64,000 nucleotides of DNA, from contig OZ038450.1 in assembly GCA_964036195.1 (NCBI GenBank), positions 27,902,794-27,966,793 on the forward strand. The letters are read 5' to 3'. Positions 18,101-49,217 of the stretch are shown here, one piece after another (within the stretch, counting starts at the first letter, position 1; each line of letters opens with the position of its first letter). A program made the position numbers and the translations under genes. Source of the DNA: Sphaerolaimus hirsutus (lineage: Eukaryota; Nematoda; Chromadorea; Monhysterida; Sphaerolaimidae). Below the pieces are notes generated by a model. The model made no database searches and was not told the origin of the DNA. It saw nothing but the letters and a program-made list of their open reading frames with translations.

Positions 18101-20367
18101 TAGTGATGTAAAAGCGCCATGGCGCTGGCGCTTGGCGCTAGCGCTAAAGCAAAAAGCGCCATGGCGCTTTTGGCGCTTGGCGCCTTTTTGTTGTGGCGCC
18201 ATTGGCGCTTGGCGCTGTGCTACCGAAAAGCGCCATGGCGCTTTTGGCGCTTGGCGCTATGGTGTCGCGGCGCCATTGGCGCTTGGCGCTAGTGTTTTAT
18301 AAAGCGCCAAAAACACGCCAAGTAGTACAAAAAATAATCATTTTTCTTATGTAAAAGACCTTGCCTGCATGAGTTACATAAGTAACGATGACAAACCCTC
18401 CAAAAAAAAGTATTTTAATTTTTAAGTGTTTTTTCCAAAATGAATTTTCGAATTTTCGAATTTTTCCTGACATTAATTTTCAAATTTCGAATTTAATTTC
18501 CAAATTTTTGAATTTTCAAATCTTTTTTGGCAATTTTCGAATTTTTTGGGCTATTTTTCGAATTTTTTCAAATTTTTTTCGAATTTTTTTTGGAAAAATA
18601 TCGAATCTGAAGCTTTAAACGCAGAATTTGGACTGTTTTGGAAGTGGGTGACACACTGAGTGTACTCAGTGCATACAGTGCTAACTTCACAAGATATGGT
18701 TACTTCTCAAACCAATACTCGAAACCACTCTTATACTCCAGTGACATTACACCTTACAATGAAATCTACCATATCCTATCTGAATAAAAGGACAAACATA
18801 ACATTTTTTAAATTATATTTATCAAATTGTTTTGATAAATATGATGATTTTTTTTAAATTTTGGTTCTTTTATTCAGATGCGATGTGGTAGATTTCATTG
18901 TAAGGTGTGATGTGGCTGGAGTATATCTTTGATCACATCCCTTTTATTTATAAATACCTATGTGCAGTTCCTATAGGCAGTCCCAGACACCTGTAAAATG
19001 CTCTGTGAAATGTCAAGTGTTATGCACATTGTCTAAAGTCATGGAAATGCTGTGGAAAATTTCAAATATGTTAGCCATTTTTTAGGGGATTTTCATAACA
19101 TTTGACACTTGCAAGACACTTCACATCATACATTTCAACGTTTTTGGACGTTTTTTTTGTTTTGTTTCGCTTTTTCATACGCACCGCGTATAATTTGTCG
19201 TTTTATTTAGCACGTTGAACCTATGAGTGCGTTTTTTTGCCTTGAATTCCCTAAAAAATTCAAAAAGTATTTTTGAATTTTCGAATTTTTGAATTTTCGA
19301 ATTTTTTGGAAAATAAATCGATTTTTAAGTGTTTTTTCTAGGGGTGAAATATAAATTCGAAAATTCCGAAAAAATTCGAAAATTCGAAAATGTTTTTGAA
19401 TTTTTGAATCTTTTTTTGCCATCGTTATACATAAGTAAATGTGTTACTGTAAGTGTGTTACAGGAAGAACAAACCCTCTACTTGCTTATTTTGTAAACCA
19501 TGTCCATGCAATTGCAAATATATTAAAAACTTTTACCAAAGAATGGGCCTACACACACTAGTTTTCAACGAAATCTTATGTCAACTGGTTTTCATCCCAA
19601 TTCAAGGCTTGATGACGAGCCGACGAACAGCATTCAAATGCATAGTGTTGCATTATATTGCAAATGAAGTTGTATTGTTGCTGTGGTATGAAGTACCGGC
19701 ATGAAGTACCTTCCGTATTTCCTTGAAATACACCCAGGGGGTTTATTTTTTCAGGGTGCAAATTTTGAGGGGAGTTTCGGGGGAGGGGGGCTTATTCGAG
19801 GGGAATTTTTATTAAGGGTCGTAGTAAAGTATTGTTTTTTGTACCCAAAACGTAATTATATGACTAAATAGGATATATTTTGTTCATATTATCATAGATC
19901 GGTCCGTAAACAAGGCCATGTATAGCTGCTTTGTCAATTCGCAGCTATAAATGTATCATGTTCATTGGATACATGATCTACCAGACGGGGTGTATTTCGA
20001 GGGGGGGTTAATTGAAGGGGGTATTTTGAGGGAATATGGTATATGTGTATACAACACTGGATAGTGTTACTTGTCAGCAAGCTTTGAATTGGGATGGGAA
20101 CCAGTTGACAAACAAATAGATAGAACTGCATTTGCATCGCTGCACTTTATGCAGCAAAATTTTTTGGCGCTGGCGCTGTTGGCGCTTGGCGCCATCATCC
20201 CCTGGCGCCATTGGCGCTTGGCGCCATGGTCTAGAAAAGCGCCATGGCGCTTTTGGCGCTTGGCGCTATTTCGCTGTGGCGCCATTGGCGCTTGGCGCTC
20301 GCATGCCAAAAGCGCCATGGCGCTTTTGGCGCTTGGCGCCAAAAGTCTGGCGCTTTTTACAACACTA
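18101..20367 (+). mobile_element. Composite hAT-like element with GGCGCC modules, 2.27 kb
   Basis: Ends are TAGTGATGTAAAAGCGCC and GGCGCTTTTTACAACACTA, flanked by a perfect GCCCTGAC duplication (18093-18100 and 20368-20375). Dense GGCGCTTGGCGCC modules sit just inside both ends. The TAACGATGACAAA element (18383-19427) and an ACCGTATTTCC-type element (about 19708-20042) are nested inside. No transposase seen. Confidence 0.85.
18383..19427 (+). mobile_element. Nested hAT-like element, TAACGATGGCAAA family
   Basis: Starts TAACGATGACAAACCCTCC, ends TTTTTTTGCCATCGTTA, with perfect TACATAAG duplications (18375-18382 and 19428-19435). The flanks are TTTCGAATTTTCGAA-rich. The core holds gtaaaatgctctgtgaaatgtc-type repeat. 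Confidence 0.9.
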
Positions 20368-22223: not shown

Positions 22224-24356
22224 TAGTGTTGTAAAAAGCGCCAGACTTTTGGCGCCAAGCGCCAAAAGCGCCATGGCGCTTTTGGCATGCGAGCGCCAAG
22301 CGCCAATGGCGCCACAGCGAAATAGCGCCAAGCGCCAAAAGCGCCATGGCGCTTTTCTAGACCATGGCGCCAAGCGCCAATGGCGCCAGGGGATGATGGC
22401 GCCAAGCGCCAACAGCGCCAGCGCCAAAAAATTTTGCTGCATAAAGTGCAGCGATGCAAATGCTGTTCTATCTATTTGTTTGTCAACTGGTTCCCATCCC
22501 AATTCAAAGCTTGCTGACAAGTAACACTATCCAGTGTTGTATACACATATACCATATTCCCTCGAAATACCCCCTTCAATTAACCCCCCTTCGAAATACA
22601 CCCCGTCTGGTAGATCATGTATCCAATGAACATGATACATTTATAGCTGCGAATTGACAAAGCAGCTATACATGGCCTTGTTTACGGACCGATCTATGAT
22701 AATATGAACAAAATATATCCTATTTAGTCATATACTTACGTTTTGGGTACAAAAAACAATACTTTACTACGACCCTTAATAAAAATTCCCCTCGAATAAG
22801 CCCCCCCGCCCGAAACTCCCCTCAAAATTTGCACCCTGAAAAAATAAACCCCCTGGGTGTATTTCGAGGAAATACGGAAGGTACTTCATGCCGGTACTTC
22901 ATACCACAGCAACAATACAACTTCATTTGCAATATAATGCAACACTATGCATTTGAATGCTGTTCGTCGGCTCGTCATCAAGCCTTGAATTGGGATGAAA
23001 ACCAGTTGACATAAGATTTCGTTGAAAACTAGTGTGTGTAGGCCCATTCTTTGGTAAAAGTTTTTAATATATTTGCAATTGCATGGACATGGTTTACAAA
23101 ATAAGCAAGTAGAGGGTTTGTTCTTCCTGTAACACACTTACAGTAACACATTTACTTATGTATAACGATGGCAAAAAAAGATTCAAAAATTCGAAAACAT
23201 TTTCGAATTTTCGAATTTTTTCGGAATTTTCGAATTTATATTTCACCCCTGGAAAAAACACTTAAAAATCGATTTATTTTCCAAAAAATTCGAAAATTCA
23301 AAAATTCGAAAATTCGAAAATACTTTTCGAATTTTTTAGGGAATTCAAGGCAAAAAACGCACTCATAGGTTCAACGTGCTAAATAAAACGACAAATGATA
23401 CGCGGTGCATATGAAAAAGCGAAACAAAACAAAAAAAACGTCCAAAAACGTTGAAATGTATGATGTGAAGTGTCTTGCAAGTGTCAAAAGTTATGAAAAT
23501 CCCCTGGAAAATGGCTAACATATTTGAAATTTTCCACAGCATTTCCATGACTTTAGACAATGTGCATAACACTTGACATTTCACAGAGCATTTTACAGGT
23601 GTCTGGGACTGCCCATAGGAACTGCACATAGGTATTTATAAGTAAAAGGGATGTGATCAAAGATATACTCCAGCCACATCACACCTTACAATGAAATCTA
23701 CCACATCGCATCTGAATAAAAGAACCAAAATTTAAAAAAAATCATCATATTTATCAAAACAATTTTATAAATATAATTTAAAAAATGTTATGTTTGTACT
23801 TTTATTCAGATAGGATAAGGTAGATTTCATTGTAAGGTGTAATGTCGCTGGAGTATAAGAGTGGTTTCAAGTATTGGTTTGAGAAGTAACCATATCTTGT
23901 GAAGTTAGCACTGTATGCACTGAGTACACTCAGTGTGTCACCCACTTCCAAAACAGTCCAAATTCTGCGTTTAAAGCTTCAGATTTGATATTTTTCCAAA
24001 AAAAAATTCGAAAAAAATTTGAAAAAATTTGAAAAATAGCCCAAAAAATTCGAAAATTGCCAAAAAAGATTCGAAAATTCAAAAATTTGAAAATTAAATT
24101 CGAAATTTGAAAATTAATGTCAGGAAAAATTCGAAAATTCGAAAATTCATTTTGGAAAAAACACTTAAAAATTTAAATACTTTTTTTTGGAGGGTTTGCC
24201 ATCGTTACTTATGTAACTCATGCAGGCAAGGTCTTTTACATAAGAAAAATGATTATTTTTTGTACTACTTGGCGCTTTTTTGGCGCTTTATAAAACACTA
24301 GCGCCAAGCGCCAATGGCGCCGCGACACCATAGCGCCAAGCGCCAAAAGCGCCATG
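22224..24356 (-). mobile_element. Second, inverted and truncated copy of the composite element
   Basis: Begins TAGTGTTGTAAAAAGCGCC exactly at the element tip and is the reverse complement of 18234-20367, almost base for base (2133 against 2134 bp). It carries the same nested TAACGATGGCAAA element (23163-24207, duplication CTTATGTA). It stops inside the GGCGCC module at 24356, without the other tip. Confidence 0.85.
23163..24207 (-). mobile_element. Nested TAACGATGGCAAA element in the second composite
   Basis: 1045 bp, the same length as 18383-19427, with identical target duplications in reverse (CTTATGTA). It therefore travelled as a passenger and did not insert independently. Confidence 0.88.
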
Positions 24357-32310: not shown

Positions 32311-33512
32311 AGGGTGTAAACTAAGTTTCTTATATATTTTTTAATCTCATAGAAATGAACATTCCTGCATCCCATTCTGCTGTACATTGGCCGAATTTGA
32401 TGCCCTTCGAGTATGTTGGGGTTTGGGGTCTGGGCTATGACGAGTTGTTTTGGTTTGCTCAAATAATCCCCCAGTCTCGAGATAAGGGGGGTCTATAAAA
32501 CGGATGTCATTTTGCATGGATGATCTGCACATTGACTTTGAAGCTTGATAACTTGACCATTTCTGGGCCGATTCGGATCGTTCAACACTTAAAATGATCA
32601 AGACAACCTGCAGATTCAATTTTTATGGTCGAATCAGTGATGTCTAAATCCAGTGTGCCGATTTGACCCGGTTTTTGAACATGGAAAAAAGATTTTCTGA
32701 ACATGCTATCATATACTTTAGACAACGAGAATTCATATAAAACAAAAATGAGTTCAATATCTCTTTCCAATCAAAAGTTGTACCACTTTGAACGTTCGCT
32801 TCCTTCTCATAAAATAATCACATGAAGAACAGTACATACAGATAATCAAAACATAAAAATGAAATCTACAGGTCATTATGATCATTTTAAGCATTCATAG
32901 GTGCAAATCGGCTGGGAAATAGCAGAGATGTAAGGTTTTGAATTTGCATGCTATGTACATACTTCATGTGGTAATTTATATTTATGGTTTGGAGGTGGAA
33001 GTTTTAAGTGCTGTAACTTTTGACTGGAAAGAGATATTGACATAATTTTTATTGGCCAGATTAATTCTTTTTGTCTAAAGTATATGACAGCACCTTCAAA
33101 AACACTGTCTTGAAAAATTATTATTACGATTATTTTGGATGTTCAAAAATCGGGTCAAATCGGCATACGGAATTAAGACATCACTAATCCGACCATAAAA
33201 ATTGAATCTGCAGGCTGTCCTGATCATTTTGAGTGTTGAACGATCTGAATCGGCCCAGAAATGACCGAGTTATTAAGCTTAGAAGTCAGTGTGCAGATCA
33301 TCCATGCAAAATGACCACCTTTTTATAAACCCCACTTATCTCGGGACTGGGGGATTATTCGAGCAAACCAAAACAATTTGTCAGAGCCCAGACCCCAAAT
33401 CCCAACATACTCGAATGGCATCAAATTCGGCCAATGTACAACAGAATGGGATGCAGGACTGTGCATTTCTAGAAGATTGCAAAAAATATAAGAGACTTAG
33501 TTTACAGCCCAA
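32311..33512. mobile_element. Foldback element inserted in a duplicated segment
   Basis: Arms of about 490 bp in inverted orientation (32311-32800 and about 33020-33512), with tips gggtgtaaactaagtttctt and aagagacttagtttacagccc. Comparison with 42676-42710, where gggtcataaaaataatagga runs uninterrupted, shows this is an insertion. Flanks are ATTA and AATA. The interior resembles 40130-40740. Confidence 0.75.
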
Positions 33513-33678
33513 TACAAGGATGGATTTTTTCATGTGCGAAATTTAATCAGCCCAAATATTTTTCTCACACACTCTGGTTTGTTGTATCTTGAATTTTGAA
33601 AAGCATTGCCAATTTCATTACTGTTCCTAAACCACATCAAATGAGGAACATATCATACAAAAAAGTTACAACAAATCG

Positions 33679-33933
33679 GGCTGCCTTACAACAAAAAGTT
33701 GGGCCAATTAAAATTGCCCCAGCTCTGTCAGAGTTGGCAACAAGCCAACACTTCCGATGGATCCAAATAAAGTGTCCTATAGTAGATTAGCTTATGAATT
33801 TGACTGTGTGCTGGAGGATGTCGTGATTCCGACGCAAAATGAGCTAAACAATTTTTATCTGCGGCACCAGAATGCCTCCTGGTTTTACGGCATCAAGCAT
33901 CCATTAGTTGGCTGGAATTTTGGGTGTTTTTAG
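33679..33933 (+). pseudogene. Duplicate of an unidentified exon, no intron
   Basis: Reads MDPNKVSYSRLAYEFDCVLE then DVVIPTQNELNNFYLRHQNA and SWFYGIKHPLVGWNFGCF before a stop. It is the same sequence as exons 42830-42986 plus 43177-43269, but continuous, with GAG where the other copy has the 190-bp intron. It lacks the gtaagt donor of the other copy and has a stop upstream near 33703, so it looks like a dead duplicate. Confidence 0.65.
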
Positions 33934-35289: not shown

Positions 35290-36600
35290 TACCGTATTTC
35301 CTCGAATTATCGCTCCCTTGAATTAACCCCCCTTAAAATACCTCCCATCTTACATTGCCTACATCATGTATGCAATGTACATGATGTATTATTTGCTGCC
35401 ATTTTCCATAGCAAATACATATAAAGTAGTTTGTATATGTATATATGCATACTGTATTACCTCGAAATACCCCCAGGGGGTTTATTTTTTCGCCAGCAAA
35501 ATTTTAGGGGGGGATAATTCGAGGGGGGGTTTATTCGAAGGGGTGGTCTATTATTTCGCCAGAAATTTTTGGAAATTCCCCATACTCAGACATAGAAAAA
35601 TCAAACAATTACATAGATAGATATGTGGTTATAGGCATATATTAATGTAACAACTGTTCAGATACATGAAGTCCCAAAGGTAAATGAAGCAATAAATGGT
35701 ATAAAATTGTGGCTGGTTACAGGTTTCGGGGTCTCTCATCTGACCTGAAACCAGCCGGGGGTGACCCGACCCCATCATCAGAGATGAAGTCACCCCCCAC
35801 ACACCAAACCCCCCCCCCCACTTGTAATATGGGTAATCGGGAAAACGTATGAACCGAAAAACGCCAAGTAAAACTATCTACTCACCCTACTCTGTTCGGT
35901 TGCGTCCACATTTTCTTCAGCACTCGAGGCCATTTCCCTTTGTACCGCTGCCGCTAATCAGTCGCTCGGCGTTAAACGTCTGCGCGGGATTTTGTAATTT
36001 GCCAAGTTGAAGAAGTTTGGTTGGGTGCTCATAATTGTCAAGTCAAATGAAAATCGGCTAAAAAGATCACGTGAAAATGATCGATAAAATTTGAATTACC
36101 GCGCAATTTTTTGTATTTATTCTGAAAATCAAGGTGGTGTCGAAATTCGCTTAGTTTGACGTTTCCAGTTATTTACCCATAATCATTATTATCTAAAAAA
36201 ATGCTATTTTCTTAAAAAGAATTTTTTAGAAAAGATTTTTTACAGTGATATATTTGAAAAAAATTTGTACATGTAATTTAAGAAAAAGAAGTGTCAAATT
36301 GTAGTCACTAATGTTACAATTTCTGAGAACAGTTTTTTATCGCAACATCTTCCCAGACGTAGCAATTCTTTGTCATATAACATATAACTGTTAATACACA
36401 TAAACCCTACCTTAACATCACTCAATCAGCAGTTTTAACGTGTGTTCTGCATTGTACAGATCACAACCCTTTACACTCAATTTTAGGGGGGTATTTCGAG
36501 GGGGGGGTTATCATTTCCTCAGCCGAATTTTAGGGGGGGTATTTCGAGGGGGGGGGGGTTAATTCAAGGGGGGGGATAATTCGAGGTAATACGGTAGGTA
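35290..36600. repeat. ACCGTATTTCC-type repeats and unassigned sequence
   Basis: CCGTATTTCCTCGAATTATC at 35291, gaggggggtttattcg at 35520 and ttcgaggtaatacggt at about 36580 mark repeat pieces. 35550-36470 between them shows no gene. Confidence 0.5.
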
Positions 36601-37215
36601 TATACTCGGCAGACACGATACTCTACAAACAAATGGGAGTTATGTCTTTGGCTGGCAGACGGCCAGCCGAGAACTTGCTGAAGACGTGCTGATGACAAAG
36701 TGATGACGTTATGACGTGATGGCGAAGATGATGATGGCGACGAAAGTGACCACGTCATGATGGAGTGTTTCCTCCAGAAAAATGTACGGCGTAATGTCAT
36801 CCGAGTATACCGTATTTCCTCGAAATATCCCCCTTGAATTTAATTATAATAAACACACATGGGGGTAATTCGAGGTAATATGGTGAATACATTTTAACAC
36901 TAAATTGCTCTGTATAGCAAAGTAAAAATACCATAAATTCTCTAAATAAGTCCTCTCCCTAGAATAACTCCAACTGTTAGCCAAATGAGAATAAAATAGA
37001 CATCCCTTGAATAACTGCGCTTTTTAGCTGTGTGGGGAACAAAGAAGTCCCCATTGAAAGTCCCCCAGTCACAATGTTTGGCTGAAAAATATATCTCTGG
37101 GCATTTTAATAATGTAAACATTGTAGTGGTTGATTGAACTTCAATGGCAGAAGTTTAATCGACCACTACGACATCAGCGGTGCGTCACAGTTATGAATCA
37201 TTATTCTACAAACGT

Positions 37216-37436
37216 ATTGCAGGAAAAAATTTTTGGCGCTGGCGCTATTGGCGCTTGGCATTACCCCCTGGCGCCATTGGCGCTTGGCGCTGAGGTTCAG
37301 AAAAGCGCCATGGCGCTTTCGGCGCTTGGCGCTATTTAGCTCTGGCGCCATTGGCGCTTGGCGCTGGGGGTTAGAAAAGCGCCATGGCGCTTTTGGCGCT
37401 TGGCGCCAAAAGTCTGGCGCTTTTTCCATCACTACC
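37216..37436 (+). repeat. GGCGCC module
   Basis: Dense GGCGCTTGGCGC and GCGCCATGGCGC units ending GGCGCTTTTTCCATCACTA, the tip seen on the composite elements. Confidence 0.7.
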
Positions 37437-37524
37437 CCAGTCTTCAATGAGGTACATCATGTATGCAATGTACATTATGTATTTATTGGGGACAAATTGC
37501 ATCGCAACTGTACATAGAGTAGTT

Positions 37525-39127
37525 TGTATACCGTATTTCCTCGAAATACCCCCCCCCCTGGAAATACTATGGGCACTATGAATTTGTGGTCCGGGAAATG
37601 CATAACAGACATTCAAAACCCTTACTGTGTTACGTTAGAACATCGTTTATACCCAATGGTTGCAAAAACACAGAAATTGAACACAGAAACTCATTGAGTT
37701 TCTGTGTTTTTGTTTTACACAGAAACACGGAAACTCAAAATTTTTGAAAAACTCAAAACTCAAATGAGTTTTTTATTGGAGAACACGGAAACACAGAAAC
37801 ACGGAAACACAGGAAAGTTTTTTTGAGTTTTTTATTGGATTTGAGGAATACTGTGCTGTGTTTAATAAGAAATGTGCACAAGTGCATATCAACAGATAAC
37901 AAATTTTCCAAATTTTATAAAAAGTAACAAAATTCAACCAAGTAACAAAATGGAACCTGGTCATTATGATAATGCTGGGAATTGTGATTGACACTGACTG
38001 ATTGACAAAGACAATTGCTCCCTCCAGCTCACCCCAAAGTTGAGGGCTCAACCCAAAGCTGCCAAAAGAATAAGCTGGTCACTTGTAAGGTATTATTTAC
38101 AACTGTAATGGGTCAAAAGATGAGTTAGTCAAGTGAAACCAGTAAAGTAAAATGTCATCAAAAATGCCAAATGTTAAAACTTTGATTTTACAGTTTGCAT
38201 GACTGTTTACATTTTTCAGCACATTTTACAGGGTCCCTGGACACCCATAAACAAATTTGTAGTGAGAAAACCACTGTATTTGGGTAAAAACTCACATTTT
38301 TTTTAAAAACACGAGTTTTTATGAAAAAACTTGAGTTTTTATGAAAAAACTTGAGTTTTTACAAAAAACACAGAAATAAAAACAGAGTTACTCAAGTTTT
38401 TTTCATGGGAAAAACTCAAAACACAGGTATTCATTTTTGAAAAACTCAAAACACAGAAAGTGTTTTTTTCTGGAGAACTTACCCATCGTTGTTTATACCA
38501 TCTACATCCTTATATAAGGCTGTAAAAACTTATAAATGGTGGTTATTGTTGCATATTTCACGTTTCTCTCTAAAAATTTTCACTCTGAAAAAATAAACCC
38601 CCCGGGGGTAATTCGAGGAAATACGGTAGCTATATCTACGTTTTTATGTTCTAATATGTCCTGTTTTGTGACATTTATTACCGGTTGTGGGTGTGTAAAG
38701 CGCATTCTTTACTACTAACTTTACGAAAATTTCTGACGAAATAATAACCCCCCCTCAAATACGGTAGACACATTTTATTTTTGAGGTCCTTTTATTGGAG
38801 ACATTTAAACATTTGAATGCAACACAGTGTTGCGCGAGTAAATGGAAAAAAAATTAAAACTCCGGGATCAGTCAACGAGTTATGTAAAAGTGAAACCTTT
38901 GGTTGTCGAATTTTGGTTTGTCGCATCCCTGGAATCTGCTGCAAAATTTGTTGCCATGTAAGGTGAGAAATGGCAGGAATGTTATGCTACAAGATTTTTA
39001 CCAGGTTTTTCACACATATGAAGTATTGATGATGGCAAACACCGTAGAGAAAAAGTGTCCTTACTCAATTGAGTTTTCGAACTTTGTTTTAATTCCAGAC
39101 ATAATTTTCCAATTTATTACTACCTAC
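37525..39127. repeat. Mixed repeats, no gene
   Basis: ACCGTATTTCC-type pieces (37530-37560, 38570-38630, 38740-38770), an acacagaaactcattgag repeat block (37660-38480) and a gtaaaatgtcatc piece (38140-38250) of the introner-like family. Confidence 0.5.
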
Positions 39128-39135
39128 CTATATAG

Positions 39136-41199
39136 CAGTGTTGTGAAAATACTGGGTTTTTTGGCAAATGTAAGTGTAAACGAAAATGTAAGTGTAAATA
39201 CCTTTTCACATTTTCACATTTCACGTGAAAAAAATTTATCAAGTGCTCCCACCATCAGAGCATTATTTTACAATTTTATGCATGTCCACATGCTCTCCAT
39301 CAACATTTTCTCCTTTTTTCATACCAAATGATAAAAATCATTGCTTATAAGGCAATTTGTTGGAAAATTTTGATTGCATTCTCCTAACACAGACATTCTC
39401 CTGTCTGGAGCAGTAATTTAATTATGAACAATTGAATTTGCAAAATGATGACATGATAACAATTTATACAAAATACAGTCACTTAAAAGTTTTTTATATT
39501 CTTTGTGTAATGGTCACCATTTCTGTCCACTTGCTAGAAAACAACAAGCTGTAATACACTACCGTGCAGAATAGTTGAGACTTTTTGTGCTGCGTGATTA
39601 ATGTTGCCAGAATTTTGAAATGGTCGATATGCAAAACATTTGGATACTATACATGGGTACCCTTGGGGGTTGACTACACATGCCCGGGATGACCGCCCCT
39701 CAAGTTCAAATCTGCGTATATTCCTAGTGTACAAACATATTAACTCAGTTTGTTCATGTTTCAGAATAGTTGAGACTTTTCTTGTTTTTGACAGTAGCCA
39801 CCCAGTATCTCACTTTAAAGTCTATATCCAATCCCTATGTTCATTTTTTAACAAAATTTTCACCATGGCAACTGCTTGCCTGCATCGCTGAGCTCTGTGC
39901 AGCAAAAACATTCTAAGCATGAACAGCATATGGCAATGCATATATGGAAATGTGACATTTATTTATTTTTGCTGCAGTTTTGAATCCATTGCCAGCAACT
40001 CAGAAATGGGGGTAGGCATACTACTGAGTGGGGCTTTTTGGTGTGTAAATTTGAGGTTTTGGCTTTGCTCTATTAGGGAGAAGAGTTGGCCCAACTGTGA
40101 ATGAGTGATGTGCAATTATTTTGGATGGAATGAAGATTGAAGTTTGTAAGTGCTATAACTTTTGATTGGAAAGAGATATTGAAAAAAACGTTTTTGTCAT
40201 ATTAATTCTCTCTGTCTAAAGTATGTTATAGACTGTTCAATAACAAAATTTTCTTGCTGCAAACCCCAGTAAAAAAAAGCATAAAATCTTTAGACACCAT
40301 TGAAAACTTTGAAGTGCCTTAACTTTTGATTGGAAAGAGATATTGAACTCATTTTTGTTTTAAATGAATCCTCCTTATCTAAAGACTATGATAGCATGTT
40401 CAAAAAAAAATTAATTTTTCATGTTAAAAAACTGAGTCAAGTTGACATACTGAGTTCAGACATCACTAAACACAAAAATAGAATCTGCAGGTAATCCCGA
40501 TCATTTTAAGTGTTGAATCATTCAAATCAGCCCAGAAATGGTTGAGTTATTAAGCTTCAAAGACACTCATCCAGATTGCCCATTTTCTGTATATTTATTT
40601 ACCATCATTTTATAGACCCCCCTTATCTCGGGCCTGGGGGATTATTTGAGCAAACCACAATATTTCGTAGGAGCCCCAGCATCAAACCCCGACATACTCA
40701 AATGGCATCAAAATTGGTCAAGGGACAAGAAATTGGGAAGCAAAAAAGTGTGGTGGACCCCCAGCCTACTGTTTCTCTATGTGTGAAAAGTCTCAACTAT
40801 TCTGCACGGTAGTGTATTTCAATAAATTCAGTATATATTCATGATGAATGCATTCAATGTCTCTTCTCAACTGGCTTCAATACATTTGTCAAAAGGGATG
40901 TTCTCTACTATTGTATTTTTTTTAGAGATGGAAGAAACTTTTTTTTCTCACTCCATTGACACATTTGGGCATTTCACAGGTGCAAGTGAATATTGAGCTT
41001 GTTGTGTTTTCTCTGGCACCTTGGTAAATCGGCCAAGAAAATGTAGCAAATTGTAATGGTATTTTTGGAGAATGTAAATGTAAATGTAAGTATAAATACT
41101 GGAGTACCCAGGTATTTCAGTTAAATGTCAATACATTTTTGCATTATACTGGAGTACCCAGGTATTTCAGTTAAATGTCAATACATTTTTGCAACACTG
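39136..41199. mobile_element. hAT-like element, 2.06 kb, with a nested element
   Basis: Ends CAGTGTTGTGAAAA and TTTTTGCAACACTG, flanked by perfect CTATATAG duplications (39128-39135 and 41200-41207). It contains a 51-bp tandem pair (about 41098-41195) and the nested 39557-40814 element. No transposase seen. Confidence 0.85.
39557..40814. mobile_element. Tc1/mariner-like non-autonomous element
   Basis: Perfect inverted ends, CACTACCGTGCAGAATAGTT at the left and AACTATTCTGCACGGTAGTG at the right, flanked by TA on both sides. A degenerate extra tip lies at about 39761. The interior 40130-40740 resembles the foldback element at 32311. No transposase frame. Confidence 0.88.
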
Positions 41200-41708
41200 C
41201 TATATAGGTATTCAGTTTTTCCAATTTTCTGCACCCTTTTCAATACATCTCATGAGGGCTGTCAAACTGTGACGAGAGACAGATTTCACCTTTTTATATT
41301 TCCCACCATTATCTGGATGAGAAATTGGTGACTTATTTTTTTTATTCCAATGCGCATTTATTTTCAACCAAAAATACTCTTAAATTCTAAAACAATGAAC
41401 TGATTTATGAATTTTCGGACTTTTTGTTGAATGAAACAGATGTTTAAATGCTTTTTGATGATGAAATAAATATTCAAATTTTTGTTTGCCATCGTTTCTG
41501 AGTAGCGAGTGTGTGCCGATCGTGTTTTTCTTGTAAATATGTTGAGGCATACATAATTCGTTCGTTTTTTTTGTTTGAATTCTATTTGGATTTGCATATG
41601 TGCATGAATATGAATTGCCTTCGATTTTTTAGTGTTCTCGCGGAGGCGTAGGCCTTTTCTAGCGTTTCTTATTTAAGTTCTTTTTGCAGACAGATTAACT
41701 GTATTCGA

Positions 41709-42056
41709 AATACCGTATTTGCTTGAATAATCCCCCTGGGGGATTATTATTTCGTCAGACATTTTTGAGGGGGAACTATTCGAGGGGGGGGGAATTATTC
41801 AAGAGGGGGAATTATTGTTTCGTCAAAATTTTCAAGCCTGTTTCTATCAACTTATTTAATGAAATATGGTTAATAAACACAATAACGTGCCGTTTTTGTT
41901 AAAATCAGGTACAGCATATTAATCAAATCTTTAAAGGGGGGGATTATTCAAGGGGGGGGGGGAATTATTATTTCCTCACTCGTCTTACAGGGGGGGGGGA
42001 TTATTCGAGGGGGAATTATTCAAGGGGGGGGGGAACTATTCAAGCAAATACGGTAA
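41709..42056. mobile_element. ACCGTATTTGCTTGAA-type inverted-repeat element
   Basis: Left tip accgtatttgcttgaataat, right tip attcaagcaaatacggta, with G-rich ggggggaattattcaag units between. One of the clearest two-ended copies of this family. Confidence 0.75.
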
Positions 42057-42829: not shown

Positions 42830-42986
42830 CGTCCAACATCAGATACAACTAATCTGGCTGCCTGAAAAAGTCAGGGCAATAAAATTTCGCCCCAGTGATG
42901 TCAAAGCTGGCAATGAGCCAACACATCCGATGGATCCAAACCAAGTGTCATATAGTCGATTGGCTTATGAATTTGACTGCGTGCTG
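42830..42986 (+). CDS. Unidentified gene, exon ending at an introner-like intron
   Basis: After acceptor aaacag it reads VQHQIQLIWLPEKVRAIKF, RPSDVKAGNEPTHPMDPNQ and VSYSRLAYEFDCVL, ending CTG in phase 0 at donor gtgcca. I do not recognise the protein. The acceptor is the best candidate, not certain. A near-copy is at 33.7-33.9 kb. Confidence 0.55.
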
Positions 42987-43176
42987 GTGCCAGTCCCAGA
43001 CCCTGTAAAATGCCCTGTAATATGTCATATGTCATGAAAAGTGTCGAAAGTCACGTAAAATACCCGGTAAAATAGTAACGTTTGCCATTTTACCGGGAAT
43101 TTTATGTGACTTTTGACACTTTGCATGACATTTGACATTTTCCAGGGCATTTTACAGGGTCCGGGAGTTCCCCCAG
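42987..43176 (+). mobile_element. Introner-like element forming a complete intron
   Basis: Starts gtgccagtcccagaccctg and ends cagggtccgggagttccccc followed by ag. It is a 190-bp foldback built of AAAATGTCATATGTC-type repeats. The exon reading frame resumes exactly after it (CTG then GTG GAT GTC). The duplicate at 33830 has no insertion. Confidence 0.75.
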
Positions 43177-43269
43177 GTGGATGTCGTAATCCCGACCAAA
43201 AATGAGCTATACAATTTTTACCTGCAGCACCAGAATGAACCCTGGTTTTACGGTGTCAAGCATACATTG
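43177..43269 (+). CDS. Unidentified gene, exon after the introner-like intron
   Basis: 31 codons: VDVVIPTKNELYNFYLQHQN then EPWFYGVKHTL, ending at a strong donor gtaagt in phase 0. It continues the upstream exon in frame. Confidence 0.6.
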
Positions 43270-43307
43270 GTAAGTTGTGAATTATGGGTGTTTTTAATGC
43301 TGTTCGT

Positions 43308-43534
43308 GTGCCAGTTCCGCAAAATGAGAAGTGAAATGGCAAAGGCGAAGTAAAAGCGCAAAGGCCAAGTGAAATGGCAATTGAATTGGCAAAAGTGAAG
43401 AGAAAACAAAGTGATTTCCCTTCGCTTTCGCCAATTTTCTTCTCAATTCACTTGCCGTTTCACTTCGCCTTTGCGCTTTTACTTCGCCTTTGCCATATCA
43501 TTTCTCACTTCTCATTTTGCGGAACTGGGCCCAG
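43308..43534 (+). mobile_element. Foldback element with introner-type tips, different core
   Basis: Starts gtgccagttccgcaaaatg and ends cattttgcggaactgggccc followed by ag. The arms are AGTGAAATGGCAAAGGCGAA-type repeats, unrelated to the TGTAAAATGTC core. The tips match those of 42987-43176. Confidence 0.65.
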
Positions 43535-43569
43535 GTCACCTGAGATGTCTGACGAACAATATGTCGAAC

Positions 43570-43712
43570 ATTTTGCCATGGCGCTTTTTTTTGGCGCTAG
43601 CGCCAGGCGCCAGCACCAGCCGTTTTGTTCCTGAAGCCACAGAAAAATAGTGCCAAGCGCCATGGCGCTTTTACAAACCGCTTAGCGTCTTGGCGCTTTT
43701 ATATCACTAATC
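43570..43712. repeat. GGCGCC module
   Basis: ccatggcgcttttttttggcgc and gcgccaagcgcc-like units ending GGCGCTTTTATATCACTA, the TAGTG tip. Confidence 0.65.
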
Positions 43713-43756
43713 AGGTGTACACGCCAATTGATGGGTCATAACTGTTGAGCCTATCA

Positions 43757-44150
43757 GGGAGCAGTCCCGAGCCCTGTAAAGTGTAAAGTAAAGTGTCGAA
43801 AGTAAAGTAAAGTGTCAAATGTAAAGTAAAGTGTGAAGTAAAGAGTCAATTGTGTATCCAAATCTTATTTTTCGTTTCCAAATCTTATTTTTCAACATAA
43901 GATTTGGATACAAAAACATAAGATTTGGATACAAAGACATAAGATTTGGATATGAAAAATAAGATTTGGATACACAATTGACACTTTACCTTACACTTTA
44001 CTTTACATTTGACACTTTGCATGACAATTGACATTTGACTTTGCATTTGACTACACATTTGACACTTTACTTTACCTTTGACATTTGACTTTGCATTTGA
44101 CTTTACATTTGACACTTTACTTTACACTTTACAGGGCTTGGGACTGCCCC
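43757..44150. mobile_element. Foldback element of the introner-like family, 394 bp
   Basis: Tips gggagcagtcccgagccctg and cagggcttgggactgcccc are inverted. Inside are AAAGTGTCAAATGTAAAGTA repeats and a palindromic centre with aaatcttatttttc / cataagatttgg. It lies in the intron between 43269 and 44193. Confidence 0.7.
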
Positions 44151-44192
44151 ATGAAAACATTTGAGTTCATTTTCACAAAAGTGGAGCTTCAG

Positions 44193-44369
44193 TGGAGTGA
44201 AAAAGCGCTCCTGCGCTGGCCCCCTGGCTACACCACGGGAGCCAATTGGATCTGGGCCCAGGGCCAATTCCCTCCCCCATCCACGCAGGACCTGTGCTAC
44301 GCGCCCCTGTGCACCCTGTCGACGCGATTGTACGCCCTGCGGCGGGCGGCCATCGCCGCGGCCGCCCTG
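44193..44369 (+). CDS. Unidentified gene, GC-rich exon
   Basis: 59 codons: WSEKALLRWPPGYTTGANWI, WAQGQFPPPSTQDLCYAPLC and TLSTRLYALRRAAIAAAAL, ending CTG in phase 0 at donor gtgcca. Strong G/C third-position bias against the AT-rich surroundings supports coding. The acceptor (gcttcag) is a choice among several. Family not recognised. Confidence 0.55.
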
Positions 44370-44516
44370 GTGCCACTCCCAGACACTGTAAAAAGCCCTG
44401 TAAAATGTAAAATGAACCGAGTTGCCATTTTGCAGGGCATTTTCCATGACTTCAGACAGTTTGCATGACATTTGACATTTTACGGGGCTTTTTACAGGGT
44501 CTGGGAGTGCGCCCAG
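44370..44516 (+). mobile_element. Introner-like element forming a complete 147-bp intron
   Basis: Starts gtgccactcccagacactg and ends cagggtctgggagtgcgccc followed by ag. The coding frame continues on both sides (AAAL then PGSAAHHARQ). The core is AAAATGTAAAATG / CATTTGACATTTTA repeat. Confidence 0.72.
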
Positions 44517-44546
44517 CCCGGCAGCGCCGCCCACCACGCGCGCCAG
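44517..44546 (+). CDS. Unidentified gene, 10-codon exon
   Basis: PGSAAHHARQ followed by gtgccagtccc, the same 11 bases that begin the introner-like elements, so a further such intron may start at 44547. If read on, the frame stays open to a donor-like gtgaga at about 44588. Confidence 0.4.
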
Positions 44547-45054
44547 GTGCCAGTCCCAATTCGTGGCAAAGCGCCGTGTCGAGTGAGAAGTTTTTGTGGG
44601 GTTCTATGTTGCTGGGGGGGGGGGGTTGTTTTTGAGGTGTGGAAGACAAAAACTGAAAGATGAGAAGAATAGCTAAAATGCATGACACTCAACAAATGCT
44701 GTTTTACAGACTGAGTAACTCAACTCTGAGTAACCCCAAAGATTGTTTGAATTTCTCAGTAGACAGCGCTTAACATGTTAAGGGATTGTCAACTGGCTGC
44801 ACTCGAAGAAAGCACATGCAAAAATCTGGCGAAACAGGTTGCTCAGGTGCTGTCCAATTTGAGTATTGCAATCAGATGGATGACATCAAATTGTGCAACT
44901 GATGGTTGGTTTGTCCTTAGAATGTATTTGAGGTGTCCAATTCAACTAGACAAGTACAAAATATGAACACTTCGAGTTAGGCCCGGAAACGTCATCTGGG
45001 GCTACTTCAGCACATTTTTCATCATTTTCCAAAAAAAAATTGACCTATCATACC

Positions 45055-46219
45055 TAACGATGGCAAAAAAAGATTCAAAAATTCGAAAACATTTTCGAAT
45101 TTTCGAATTTTTTCAGAATTTTCGAATTTTTATTTCGCCCCTAGAAAAAACACTTAAAAATCGATTTATTTTTCAAAAAATTCGAAAATTCGAAAATAGT
45201 TTTCGAATTTTTCAGTCAATTCAAGGCAACAAAACGCACTCTTAAGTTCAACGTGCTATATAAATCGACAATTGATACGCGGCGCGTATAAAAAAGCGAA
45301 ATGTAAGAAAAAAACGTTGAAATGTAATCTGCGGTGGAAGATGCAGACTTCGACACATCCGTTTTTTATACCGTATTTCCTCGAAATATCACCCCCTCGA
45401 AATACCCCCTCAAAATTTACACTATGAATTTATAAACACCCCTCGAAATACCCCCCTCCCCAATTTGGTGTATAGAGAATGGAATGTTTTTTGTGATCTT
45501 GGAAACACAGAACACATGCCAAAACCACTGACTGTGTTGTGTTAAAACAGACGTGTCTATAGAGTCTTATAAATGGCAGTTTTTGTTGCATTTTTTGACA
45601 TCTGTGTTACTTACAAACAACAATTTAGTACTGGGATTTTGAAAATTTCAGGCAAAATAATAACCCCCCTCTAAATACACACCCTCGTTTAACCCCACCC
45701 TCCAAGTTTCCACTCTGAAAAAATAAACCTGGGGGGGGGGCAGCCAGCAGGGGGGTTAATTCAAGGAAATACGGTATTTGATACCAATTTTTTATGCCAA
45801 TATTTTATTTGATGTCAATTTTTTAATTGTTCTTGTTATTGGCTTCGCTGTGTTGGTGAATAAAATGAAGAAGCAGCACACTGGTTTGAATAACCCTTCC
45901 GCTTCCACCATTTTTATTGCTAAATTATGGTAAAAATAAGGTTGTTAAAACTGAGCAGAACATCAAGACAGTCCAAATTCTATGTTTTAAGCTTAAGATT
46001 CAATATTTTACCAAAAAGATTCGAAAATTATTTGAAAAAATTCGAAAACTAGCCAAAAAAATTCGAAAATTGCCAAAAAAAATTCGAAAATTCGAAATTT
46101 GAAAATTAAATTCGAAATTCGAAAATTATTTTGAAGAAAAATTCGAAAATTCGAAAATTCATTTCAGAAAAAACACTTAAAAATTTAAATACTTTTTTTT
46201 TGACTGTTTGCCATCGTTA
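45055..46219 (+). mobile_element. hAT-like element, TAACGATGGCAAA family
   Basis: Starts TAACGATGGCAAAAAAAG, ends TTTGCCATCGTTA, with perfect ATCATACC duplications (45047-45054 and 46220-46227). An ACCGTATTTCC-type element (45370-45776) is nested inside. Confidence 0.9.
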
Positions 46220-47209: not shown

Positions 47210-49190
47210 TAGGGTGTCAAATTTCCGTTTCCGTTTTCCGTTTCCGCCTTTCCGCAGGAAAATTTTTTACCTTTCCGTTTTCCGTTTTCCGGCAGCCAAA
47301 AATTTTTTACCTTTCCGTTTTCCGTTTTCCGGCAGCTGAAAAATTTTTACCTTTCCGTTTTCCGTTTTCCGGCAGCTTAAAATTTTTTACCTTTCCGTTT
47401 CCGTTTTTCCGGCCCATTTTTCCGTTTTCCGGCTGAAAAATTTTTACCTTTCCGTTTCCGTTTTACCAGGCCATTTTTCCATTTTCTGGCTCGATTTTCA
47501 GTTTTCTGGCATTTTTCCATTGTTTTTCCAATCTGTATTTATCTTCAATTGGCTCATCCCATTGTGTTGTTTTTGTCTCTTGGAGCAGCATTGACAACTG
47601 GGATTTCAGGGTCAGTGAAACAGGTGCTGTGAACCCAATTGGGTCATATGCTGACACCAATAATTTATTCAAGTTTCATCTGGTTGGTGTTGTGATGCTG
47701 TCAATTTGCAATTTTGGTGTTGATATTGCCAGCATGTCCGTTCGGTGATTTTATTTCATGCCCATTACTGCGACAATTTTATTCACCTTTGGACTCCTGT
47801 CGTTTTCTGCTATTTCATTCATGACTGATCTGGAGTTTGACAGCCATTCCCTCATGTTCATAGAACATTGGTTAAATCAAGCTTTGACTTTGTAATATAG
47901 TTTTAAAGCTTCAACTTTATTTGTGACACTCATGATGAAGTTATTGACGTAAATGTTGTTTATTATCATCGCCAACTGGTTTTGTTCCCCTTCATTTTCT
48001 TCATATTCATTCATGTTGTTTATTGTCACATTTAAATGGTATTTTATGACTGCTCCCAAAATTGCTGGGCTGCAGACAAGTCCAAACAGTACGTGTTTAA
48101 AACAAAGTACTATTAAGTTATTTTCAGTTACTGGTTTTGAGGCATCTTTCAGCCAGAAAAATCGTGTGTAGTCTCTAGCTTGGTCATGCAATCCTATTTG
48201 CAAAAATGCCTTTTCAATATTGGCAATTAATGCTAGATTGCCTGCACTGAACCTCAGGAGTAGGCCCAGTGCTAATGGTGTTGTAATTGGTCCTCTAAAA
48301 AGGCACTCGTTGAAACTGGGCTTACCTGCCAACCCATCGTACACAATTCTGCATGATGTCGATTTGCCCGGCGTGATTACTGGCTGATGTGGCAGGTAAT
48401 GAATCCCCTTGTTGTCTGTTTTATCGTCACTGATCTCAATTATTCCCTTTTCTAGTTGGTCATCCAAAACTTTCCGGTATTGTTTGAATAAGTTTGGATC
48501 TTTGTTGAATCTTCTTATCAGTGATTTAAACCGCACCGAGGCTTCTGCTTTTCCCGTGGGCAGGTCACTGATACTCTCTTTATACGGCCAGTCAATATAG
48601 TATCATTTGTTGTTGTCGTTGAATTTTATGCTATTTATTATCATCTCCTCTGCAATGTCGCCATCAATTGCATAGGGGTCATCAGTGATTCCCACTGCTT
48701 CTATACTGTGAAATTGTTGTAGTGTTTCCTTTCCTATGGCCACTATGGCTACTTTTTGATGATTTTTTGTTGGTTCAGTTAAGCTTGAACTACAAGTGAA
48801 GTTACAGGCATGATCCATAGTTGCAGAATGTACAGCTACCACAATCAAAGCCAAATAGGCAAACCTGCATGCAGGTTTTCCTTCTGCAAATTTGTCTATT
48901 ACCGTGCTAATTTCACTTTATTTTTTCCGTTTCCGTGAAAATTTTGCTTTCCGTTTTCCGTTTTCCGGCATTTCATTTTTCCGTTTTCCGTTTTCCAGCT
49001 GACAATTTTTTTTTACCTTTCCGTTTTCCGTTTTCCGCTGAGTGAAATTTTGTTACCTTTCCGTTTTCCGTTTTCCGGCAGAAACTTTTTTTTTAACCTT
49101 TCCGTTTTCCGTTTTCCGTAAAGAGAAAAAATTTTACCTTTCCGTTTTCCGTTTTCCGTAAAAAAAAATTTTTGACACCCTACCCTCCGG
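47210..49190. mobile_element. Inverted-tip unit of TTTTCCG satellite enclosing a BEL/Pao fragment
   Basis: Tips GGTAGGGTGTCAAA and TTTGACACCCTACC are exact inverted repeats; flanks share CTCC. Inside, both ends hold arrays of acctttccgttttccgttt-type units, all in one orientation, with the retroelement fragment between. The whole unit lies in an intron. Confidence 0.7.
47463..48854 (-). pseudogene. BEL/Pao retrotransposon polymerase fragment
   Basis: The minus strand has FHSIEAVGITDD (48854-48603), then a 219-residue RT frame (48536-47877) with YLPHQPVITPGKSTSCRIVY, FNECLFRGPITTPLAL, LIANIEKAFLQIGLHDQARD and NIYVNNFIMS, then SAYDPIGFTAPVSL (47672-47463). This is the BEL/Pao order. The catalytic YVDD reads YVNN and the first aspartate region reads ANIEKAF, so it is inactive. 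No integrase or LTR. Confidence 0.88.
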
Positions 49191-49217
49191 TAGATAATAA
49201 ATCGTTATAATTAACAG

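Follow-up and report, generated by a model that had tools for sequence, protein, structure and literature searches.

A high-copy palindromic transposon with a CWG target whose exonic insertions probably become predicted introns in Sphaerolaimus hirsutus

The origin of new introns is a long-standing question, and it is raised in concrete form by a stretch of 64,000 nucleotides from the nematode Sphaerolaimus hirsutus, analysed here at its full length and referred to as the window. A first-pass annotation of the letters alone had described inverted-repeat elements in it that interrupt coding frames and carry their own splice sites. Does a transposon make introns here, and if so, where do the donor and the acceptor come from? 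We consider it likely that the elements belong to a high-copy palindromic transposon with a CWG target, and that insertions into exons with a GT tip upstream become predicted introns; in effect, an insertion into coding sequence would probably be a new intron, cut out by splicing. The family offers a mechanical case of intron origin, with filled and empty copies of one coding stretch, a defined target triplet, and a route from CTG to CAG. With thousands of copies, it could reveal which of the insertions persist and whether introns arise repeatedly at the same base in paralogous genes.

The genome was searched for the 15-base element tip, a check that the first-pass annotation had proposed. The search bore out a high copy number: the 348.5-Mb genome contained 4,058 exact matches (2030 forward and 2028 reverse), and the same tip read backward, used as a control, gave 0 + 0 matches in the same genome. 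Within the window, the only matches with two or fewer mismatches were GTGCCAGTCCCAGAC at 42987 and GTGCCACTCCCAGAC at 44370, against a chance expectation of 0.09, and two matches were reached in 0 of 100 shuffles. The tips of the family are of the GGGGCAGTCCC type. A DNA search with the element at 42987 as the query, in which 40 of 3513 candidates were scored and 80 matches were listed (palindromic places often twice), yielded matches at 85–91% identity besides the window copy and one copy at 100%; the other listed matches over query positions 1–190 were at 86–90%. The identical copy lies 78 kb upstream (C1:27867627-27867816), and is either the product of very recent duplication or a haplotype left uncollapsed.

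The anatomy of the family was derived from the window and 28 loci (269,120 bases); because the loci were picked for the GT tip, tip frequencies in this sample are biased. Among 96 ends, 37 followed CTG and 31 followed CAG (68/96 CTG or CAG). Paired elements were palindromes of 110–379 bp; 41 were found, of which the 30 with C-N-G on both sides were counted and the remaining 11 left out. The two flanking triplets were an identical CWG in 21 of the 30 (CTG/CTG in 13, CAG/CAG in 8) and differed in W in five (CTG/CAG in 4, CAG/CTG in 1), with other flanks in four. The target logo read C-CWG-G, and the duplication was a 3-bp CWG. One GT tip was paired with one GG tip in 20 of these 30 elements, two GT tips occurred in 3, and 7 had other tips; the majority tips were GTGCCA and GGGGCA. 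Thirteen elements of 175–200 bp yield a majority sequence of 189 bp, running from GTGCCAgTCCCAGACCCTGTAAAATG to CAGGGTCTGGGACTGCCCC; members of a second subfamily measure about 314 bp. A search of Rfam returned nothing. Judged from its sequence, the family is a general, non-autonomous palindromic DNA transposon, flanked by CAG or CTG and not confined to spliceable copies.

In their tips and duplications, the elements fit miniature transposons of the NuwaI type (PIF/Harbinger-like). In the text of PMC4482050 on this group, which belongs to the PHIS transposons (PIF/Harbinger, ISL2EU, Spy), NuwaI elements are described as having 5'-CWG-3' duplications and tips that usually start with GGG, with a DDE transposase and a Myb/SANT protein in the autonomous relative, and as reported only from animals; no intron creation by NuwaI was seen in that text. 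The CWG duplication is found here too, in the 21 of 30 elements noted above (C-N-G-selected from 41), and one tip starts in a GGG-like manner (GGGGCA), whereas the other starts with GT.

The element at 42987 gives the most direct evidence on how such an insertion affects a gene. A BLAST search of its joined flanks against the window and the 28 loci found a match across the join at 33511-33932, and the filled and empty copies lie about 9 kb apart (Table 1). The joined segments 42909-42986 and 43177-43271 align with 33736-33908 without a gap, and the 187-bp element is absent exactly at CTG: the empty copy reads GTGCTG/GAGGATG, and the filled copy reads GTGCTG/187 bp/CAG/GTGGATG. Over 57 codons, the copies show 24 differences, distributed 8/4/12 over the codon positions, with dN.090 and dS.472 (dN/dS about 0.19). 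The exact join at this copy is also more open than shifted joins. A longer alignment of the paralogs covers 426 nt at 78% and includes upstream DNA without an open frame; since the match extends beyond the open frame, the idea that the empty copy is a retrocopy was rejected. The element folds as one long hairpin (RNA MFE -118.7 kcal/mol). That the coding sequence was whole before the element arrived is indicated for this copy only, by comparison with its paralog, the direction of gain being read from these two copies. Given the empty paralog, the gapless join, and the conserved frame, the element at 42987 is best read as an intron-generating transposon.

Table 1. Positions of the elements and of the associated coding stretches in the window
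Feature	Position	Strand	Remarks
Left-hand coding stretch, GNEPTHPMDPNQVSYSRLAYEFDCVL	42909..42986	+	In-frame match to the paralog at 33736; dN.051, dS.490
Left target triplet CTG	42984..42986	+	Same CTG at the empty site, 33811-33813
Palindromic element, 187 bp, 5' GT tip, 3' C-rich (GG-type) tip	42987..43173	+	Arms of 95 nt, 85% complementary
Right target triplet CAG	43174..43176	+	Empty paralog has one CTG, then GAGGATG
Right-hand coding stretch, VDVVIPTKNELYNFYLQHQNEPWFYGVKHTL, then GTAAGT	43177..43269	+	dN.125, dS.457
Paralogous empty site, coding uninterrupted, insertion point after 33813	33736..33908	+	86.1% over 173 nt
Second element, 144 bp	44370..44513	+	CTG at 44367-44369, CAG at 44514-44516; 82.6% to the L022 element
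Putative coding sequence, 73 open codons, to the left of the second element	44151..44369	+	No Pfam match
Palindrome, 393 bp, other subfamily, GGAGCAGTCCCGAGCC...	43758..44150	+	Flanks CAG/ATG
Palindrome with tip GTGCCAGTTCC, different arms	43308..43532	+	Neighbouring family at most
Lone 12-base tip, CAG before it	44547..44558	+	No partner end found

The first-pass annotation had placed two elements, at 42987-43176 and 44370-44516, exactly where the coding frame is interrupted, and had proposed that their tips provide both GT and AG. Both elements are real, but these spans include the flanking CAG. The exactness of the interruption is upheld at 42987 by the empty paralog; at 44370, the frame is open on both sides, and a join moved by 1 or 2 bases is just as open as the exact one. 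The tips do supply GT, but the AG lies in the flanking triplet, the elements themselves ending in ...TTCCCC and ...GCGCC. As read from these copies, only the GT is built in, along with C-rich sequence ahead of the 3' end, and the AG of spliceable copies would come from the duplicated CWG. At 43174-43176, a CTG-to-CAG change in the duplicated target probably supplies the AG acceptor. In the simplest history, insertion at CTG would have duplicated the triplet, whose 3' copy would later have acquired its AG by a T-to-A change.

The mechanism that we propose can be stated more generally. The transposon would insert at (C)CWG(G), presumably driven by a transposase, and duplicate the 3-bp CWG. Where it inserts into an exon with its GT tip upstream, the GT would become the donor, right after CAG or CTG, and the 3' target copy would become the acceptor, directly if it is CAG and via a T-to-A change if it is CTG. 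Removal of the element and one triplet would then restore the reading frame exactly. Beyond its GT, GTGCCA is a poor donor when set against the splice-site consensus. A GT...AG pair, with GT first on the strand and AG at the target copy, is offered by 17 of the 30 counted elements, and likewise by 17 of all 41. The other 13 of the 30 have no such pair on either strand; in seven of them, including those at the loci L022 and L023, GT comes first and both flanking triplets are CTG. Such CTG...CTG insertions were rejected as exact GT-AG introns, as there is no AG at the target copy. The earlier designation of an intron-generating family with built-in splice sites thus gives the best reading for the element at 42987, but it goes too far in that only the GT is built in and GT...AG is lacking in these 13 elements.

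Insertions in genes elsewhere in the genome were compared with the copy at 42987. In L019, an element of 161 bp with CAG on either side (CAG/161 bp/CAG) lies within an EF-hand; when the joined protein is aligned with calmodulin (E 9e-19), no gap falls at the join, and the exon appears to start after a TTTTCAG. What L019 shows is exactness of the join at the protein level, not an intron-less ancestor. L025 contains, on the minus strand, a SMYD-like gene whose protein was joined by eye (MYND finger E 1.6e-5, SET below the cut-off). Element 1 of this gene (CAG...CAG) is placed between YSKQ and AGRYLV, within an open frame. A search of the PDB for a homolog covering this join gave no hit, and a large protein database returned a single weak MYND/SET relative (37% over 27%). 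Element 2 lies within the zf-MYND stretch of the joined protein, at the end of the next exon. Its intron seems to extend 56 bases past the element to ACCCAG/TGCC, and element 2 probably sits at an older exon edge. In the copies at 42987, in L019, and in L025 (element 1), the common tips stand exactly at the join with GT...AG, the boundaries being those inferred from the reading frames.

L022 and L023 are paralogs that carry an element at the same CTG (L022:4785-4933 and L023:4315-4629), with AG absent at the join. Their joined frame has dN.113 and dS.539 over 126 codons. The right exon shows 46 differences, 19 of them non-synonymous compared with 30.3 expected (as low in 0 of 2000 placements), and the left exon shows 18, with 6 non-synonymous compared with 11.6 expected (as low in 1 of 2000). 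The L022 element is 149 bp long and nearest to the 189-bp subfamily, and the L023 element, of 315 bp, matches a 314-bp element in L011 end to end (75.8%). A single shared insertion was rejected, the two elements belonging to different subfamilies, and shared descent is not claimed; there were either two insertions at one base, or one element was replaced by another. Because the subfamilies differ, part of the selection signal may be older than the insertions. GGGAG inside the tip is possibly an alternative acceptor, whose use would add three codons in frame. GGGAG/TGCCCCCTG is present in both L022 and L023, and we infer that it may serve these CTG...CTG copies as an acceptor. The intron-generating reading also appears to fit the L019 and L025 copies, and L022/L023 less simply. 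A wider extension of it is tentative and in our view rather doubtful: that the family is a general intron maker through one GGG tip turned GT, that CTG insertions start non-spliceable and are rescued by CTG-to-CAG changes, and that some exon sites are hot spots, where two subfamilies reached one and the same position in a pair of paralogs (L022 and L023).

Pfam searches of ten joined frames near elements gave one match, to the EF-hand, and nine frames without a match. Of ten more proteins, one had a MYND finger with a sub-threshold SET, three others had only sub-threshold matches, and six had none. L023 also contains a 1038-codon open frame (L023:5884-8997) with only a sub-threshold match to NADAR (E.0033).

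Could the elements be ordinary miniature transposons, whose CCWGG target happens to resemble exon edges (CAG/G) and whose filled gene copies are simply broken? We consider this unlikely, though it is the least improbable of the rivals. The target logo C-CWG-G agrees with it, as do the GC-rich insertion flanks (.504 compared with.421 at random CWG sites), the position of L025 element 2 at an existing exon edge, and the 13 of 30 elements without GT...AG. The frame-shift control is on its side too: exact joins did not exceed joins displaced by one or two bases significantly in openness (p.13 and.19, n=30). The joined frames were more open than random CWG sites (p.0001, n 934), weakly so after GC matching (p.034). 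Broken copies are harder to reconcile with the intact frames on both sides of exact joins in L019 and at 42987, and with the purifying selection in one frame on both sides of the L022/L023 insertions, although that selection may predate the insertions.

The polarity of the comparison at 42987 might also be reversed, the element predating the duplication and the empty site at 33813 having arisen secondarily, through intron loss or exact excision. Exact excision is within the ability of cut-and-paste elements; but the match of the paralog to upstream DNA outside the open frame argues against a retrocopy, and the matched CWG flanks elsewhere point to insertion, and we regard a derived empty site as improbable. 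Slightly less probable still is that the elements lie inside pre-existing introns and that their exactness is a coincidence of CAG/GT edges. L025 element 2 would suit this explanation, but the paralogous coding stretch is uninterrupted at 33813, and the other cases do not decide. Insertion of an intron-generating element into coding sequence is the reading that we retain.

Several parts of this picture are already known: inverted-repeat introners, splice sites borrowed from duplications, hairpin introners, and Harbinger remnants in young introns have all been described in the texts available to us. Introners, as presented in the available text of Gozashti et al. 2022 (PMC9860276), are similar introns at unrelated sites; many families bear terminal inverted repeats, the target duplications are short, and the splice site is partly provided by the duplication. 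The present elements resemble them in the inverted repeats, the short duplication, and the partial origin of the splice site, but differ in the 3-bp CWG duplication, in the near-complete palindrome, in the combination of GT and GG tips, and in the CTG...CAG of both window sites, and splicing here is predicted. An introner of Chrysochromulina, described in the same text, carries its 5' site and co-opts the 3' site, with a 4-bp duplication and no inverted repeats. Introner elements of Amoebophrya have inverted repeats through which the intron can form a hairpin, and direct repeats of 3–5 nt at the exon/intron boundary (PMC7789003, available text), and our elements share the hairpin fold and the short boundary repeats. 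The Amoebophrya introns are, however, non-canonical; their splice motifs vary greatly, and an inverted-repeat motif specific to a family was not detected in them, as against the fixed tip sequence and fixed CWG target here. Recently gained fungal introns hold remnants of PIF/Harbinger among several transposon classes, which is similar in placing a Harbinger-type element in young introns; tip-to-tip intron creation and a CWG target are not described in the available text of that study (PMC8476143). No CWG-target element was seen as an intron maker in the accessible text of the mainly open-access literature consulted, including PMC3257199, PMC8476143, and PMC5427498. The predicted route to a splice acceptor, from a non-spliceable CTG to a spliceable CAG, is unusually clear here.

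Coding sequence around the second element, at 44370, is unproven, because there is no Pfam match, a paralog of its flanks was not found in the window and the 28 loci, and shifted joins are equally open. Three translations from the window gave no match in Pfam, and one translation searched against the PDB gave two hits (E.11 and.4) that were judged to be chance. Two further relatives had been proposed in the first-pass annotation. That at 43757-44150 is indeed a palindrome, of another subfamily, but its flanks differ, and it therefore has no intact duplication; that at 43308-43534 has a tip common to the family but different arms. The start reported at 44547 has the tip but stands alone.

Other repeats were observed in the window. 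The segments 18383-19427 and 23163-24207, in opposite orientations, each match pieces of 45055-46219, and each contains an element relative with a tip of the TAGGCAGTCCC or TGGGCAGTCCC type. Several copies of a TACCGTATTTCCTCGAAATA-like repeat, followed by C-rich DNA, occur in 36001-42000 and 45361-45760. In 47225-49202, two tandem arrays of units of about 40 bp, rich in CCGTTTTCC, flank an open frame (47877-48602, minus strand) that we take to resemble a BEL/Pao-type polymerase.
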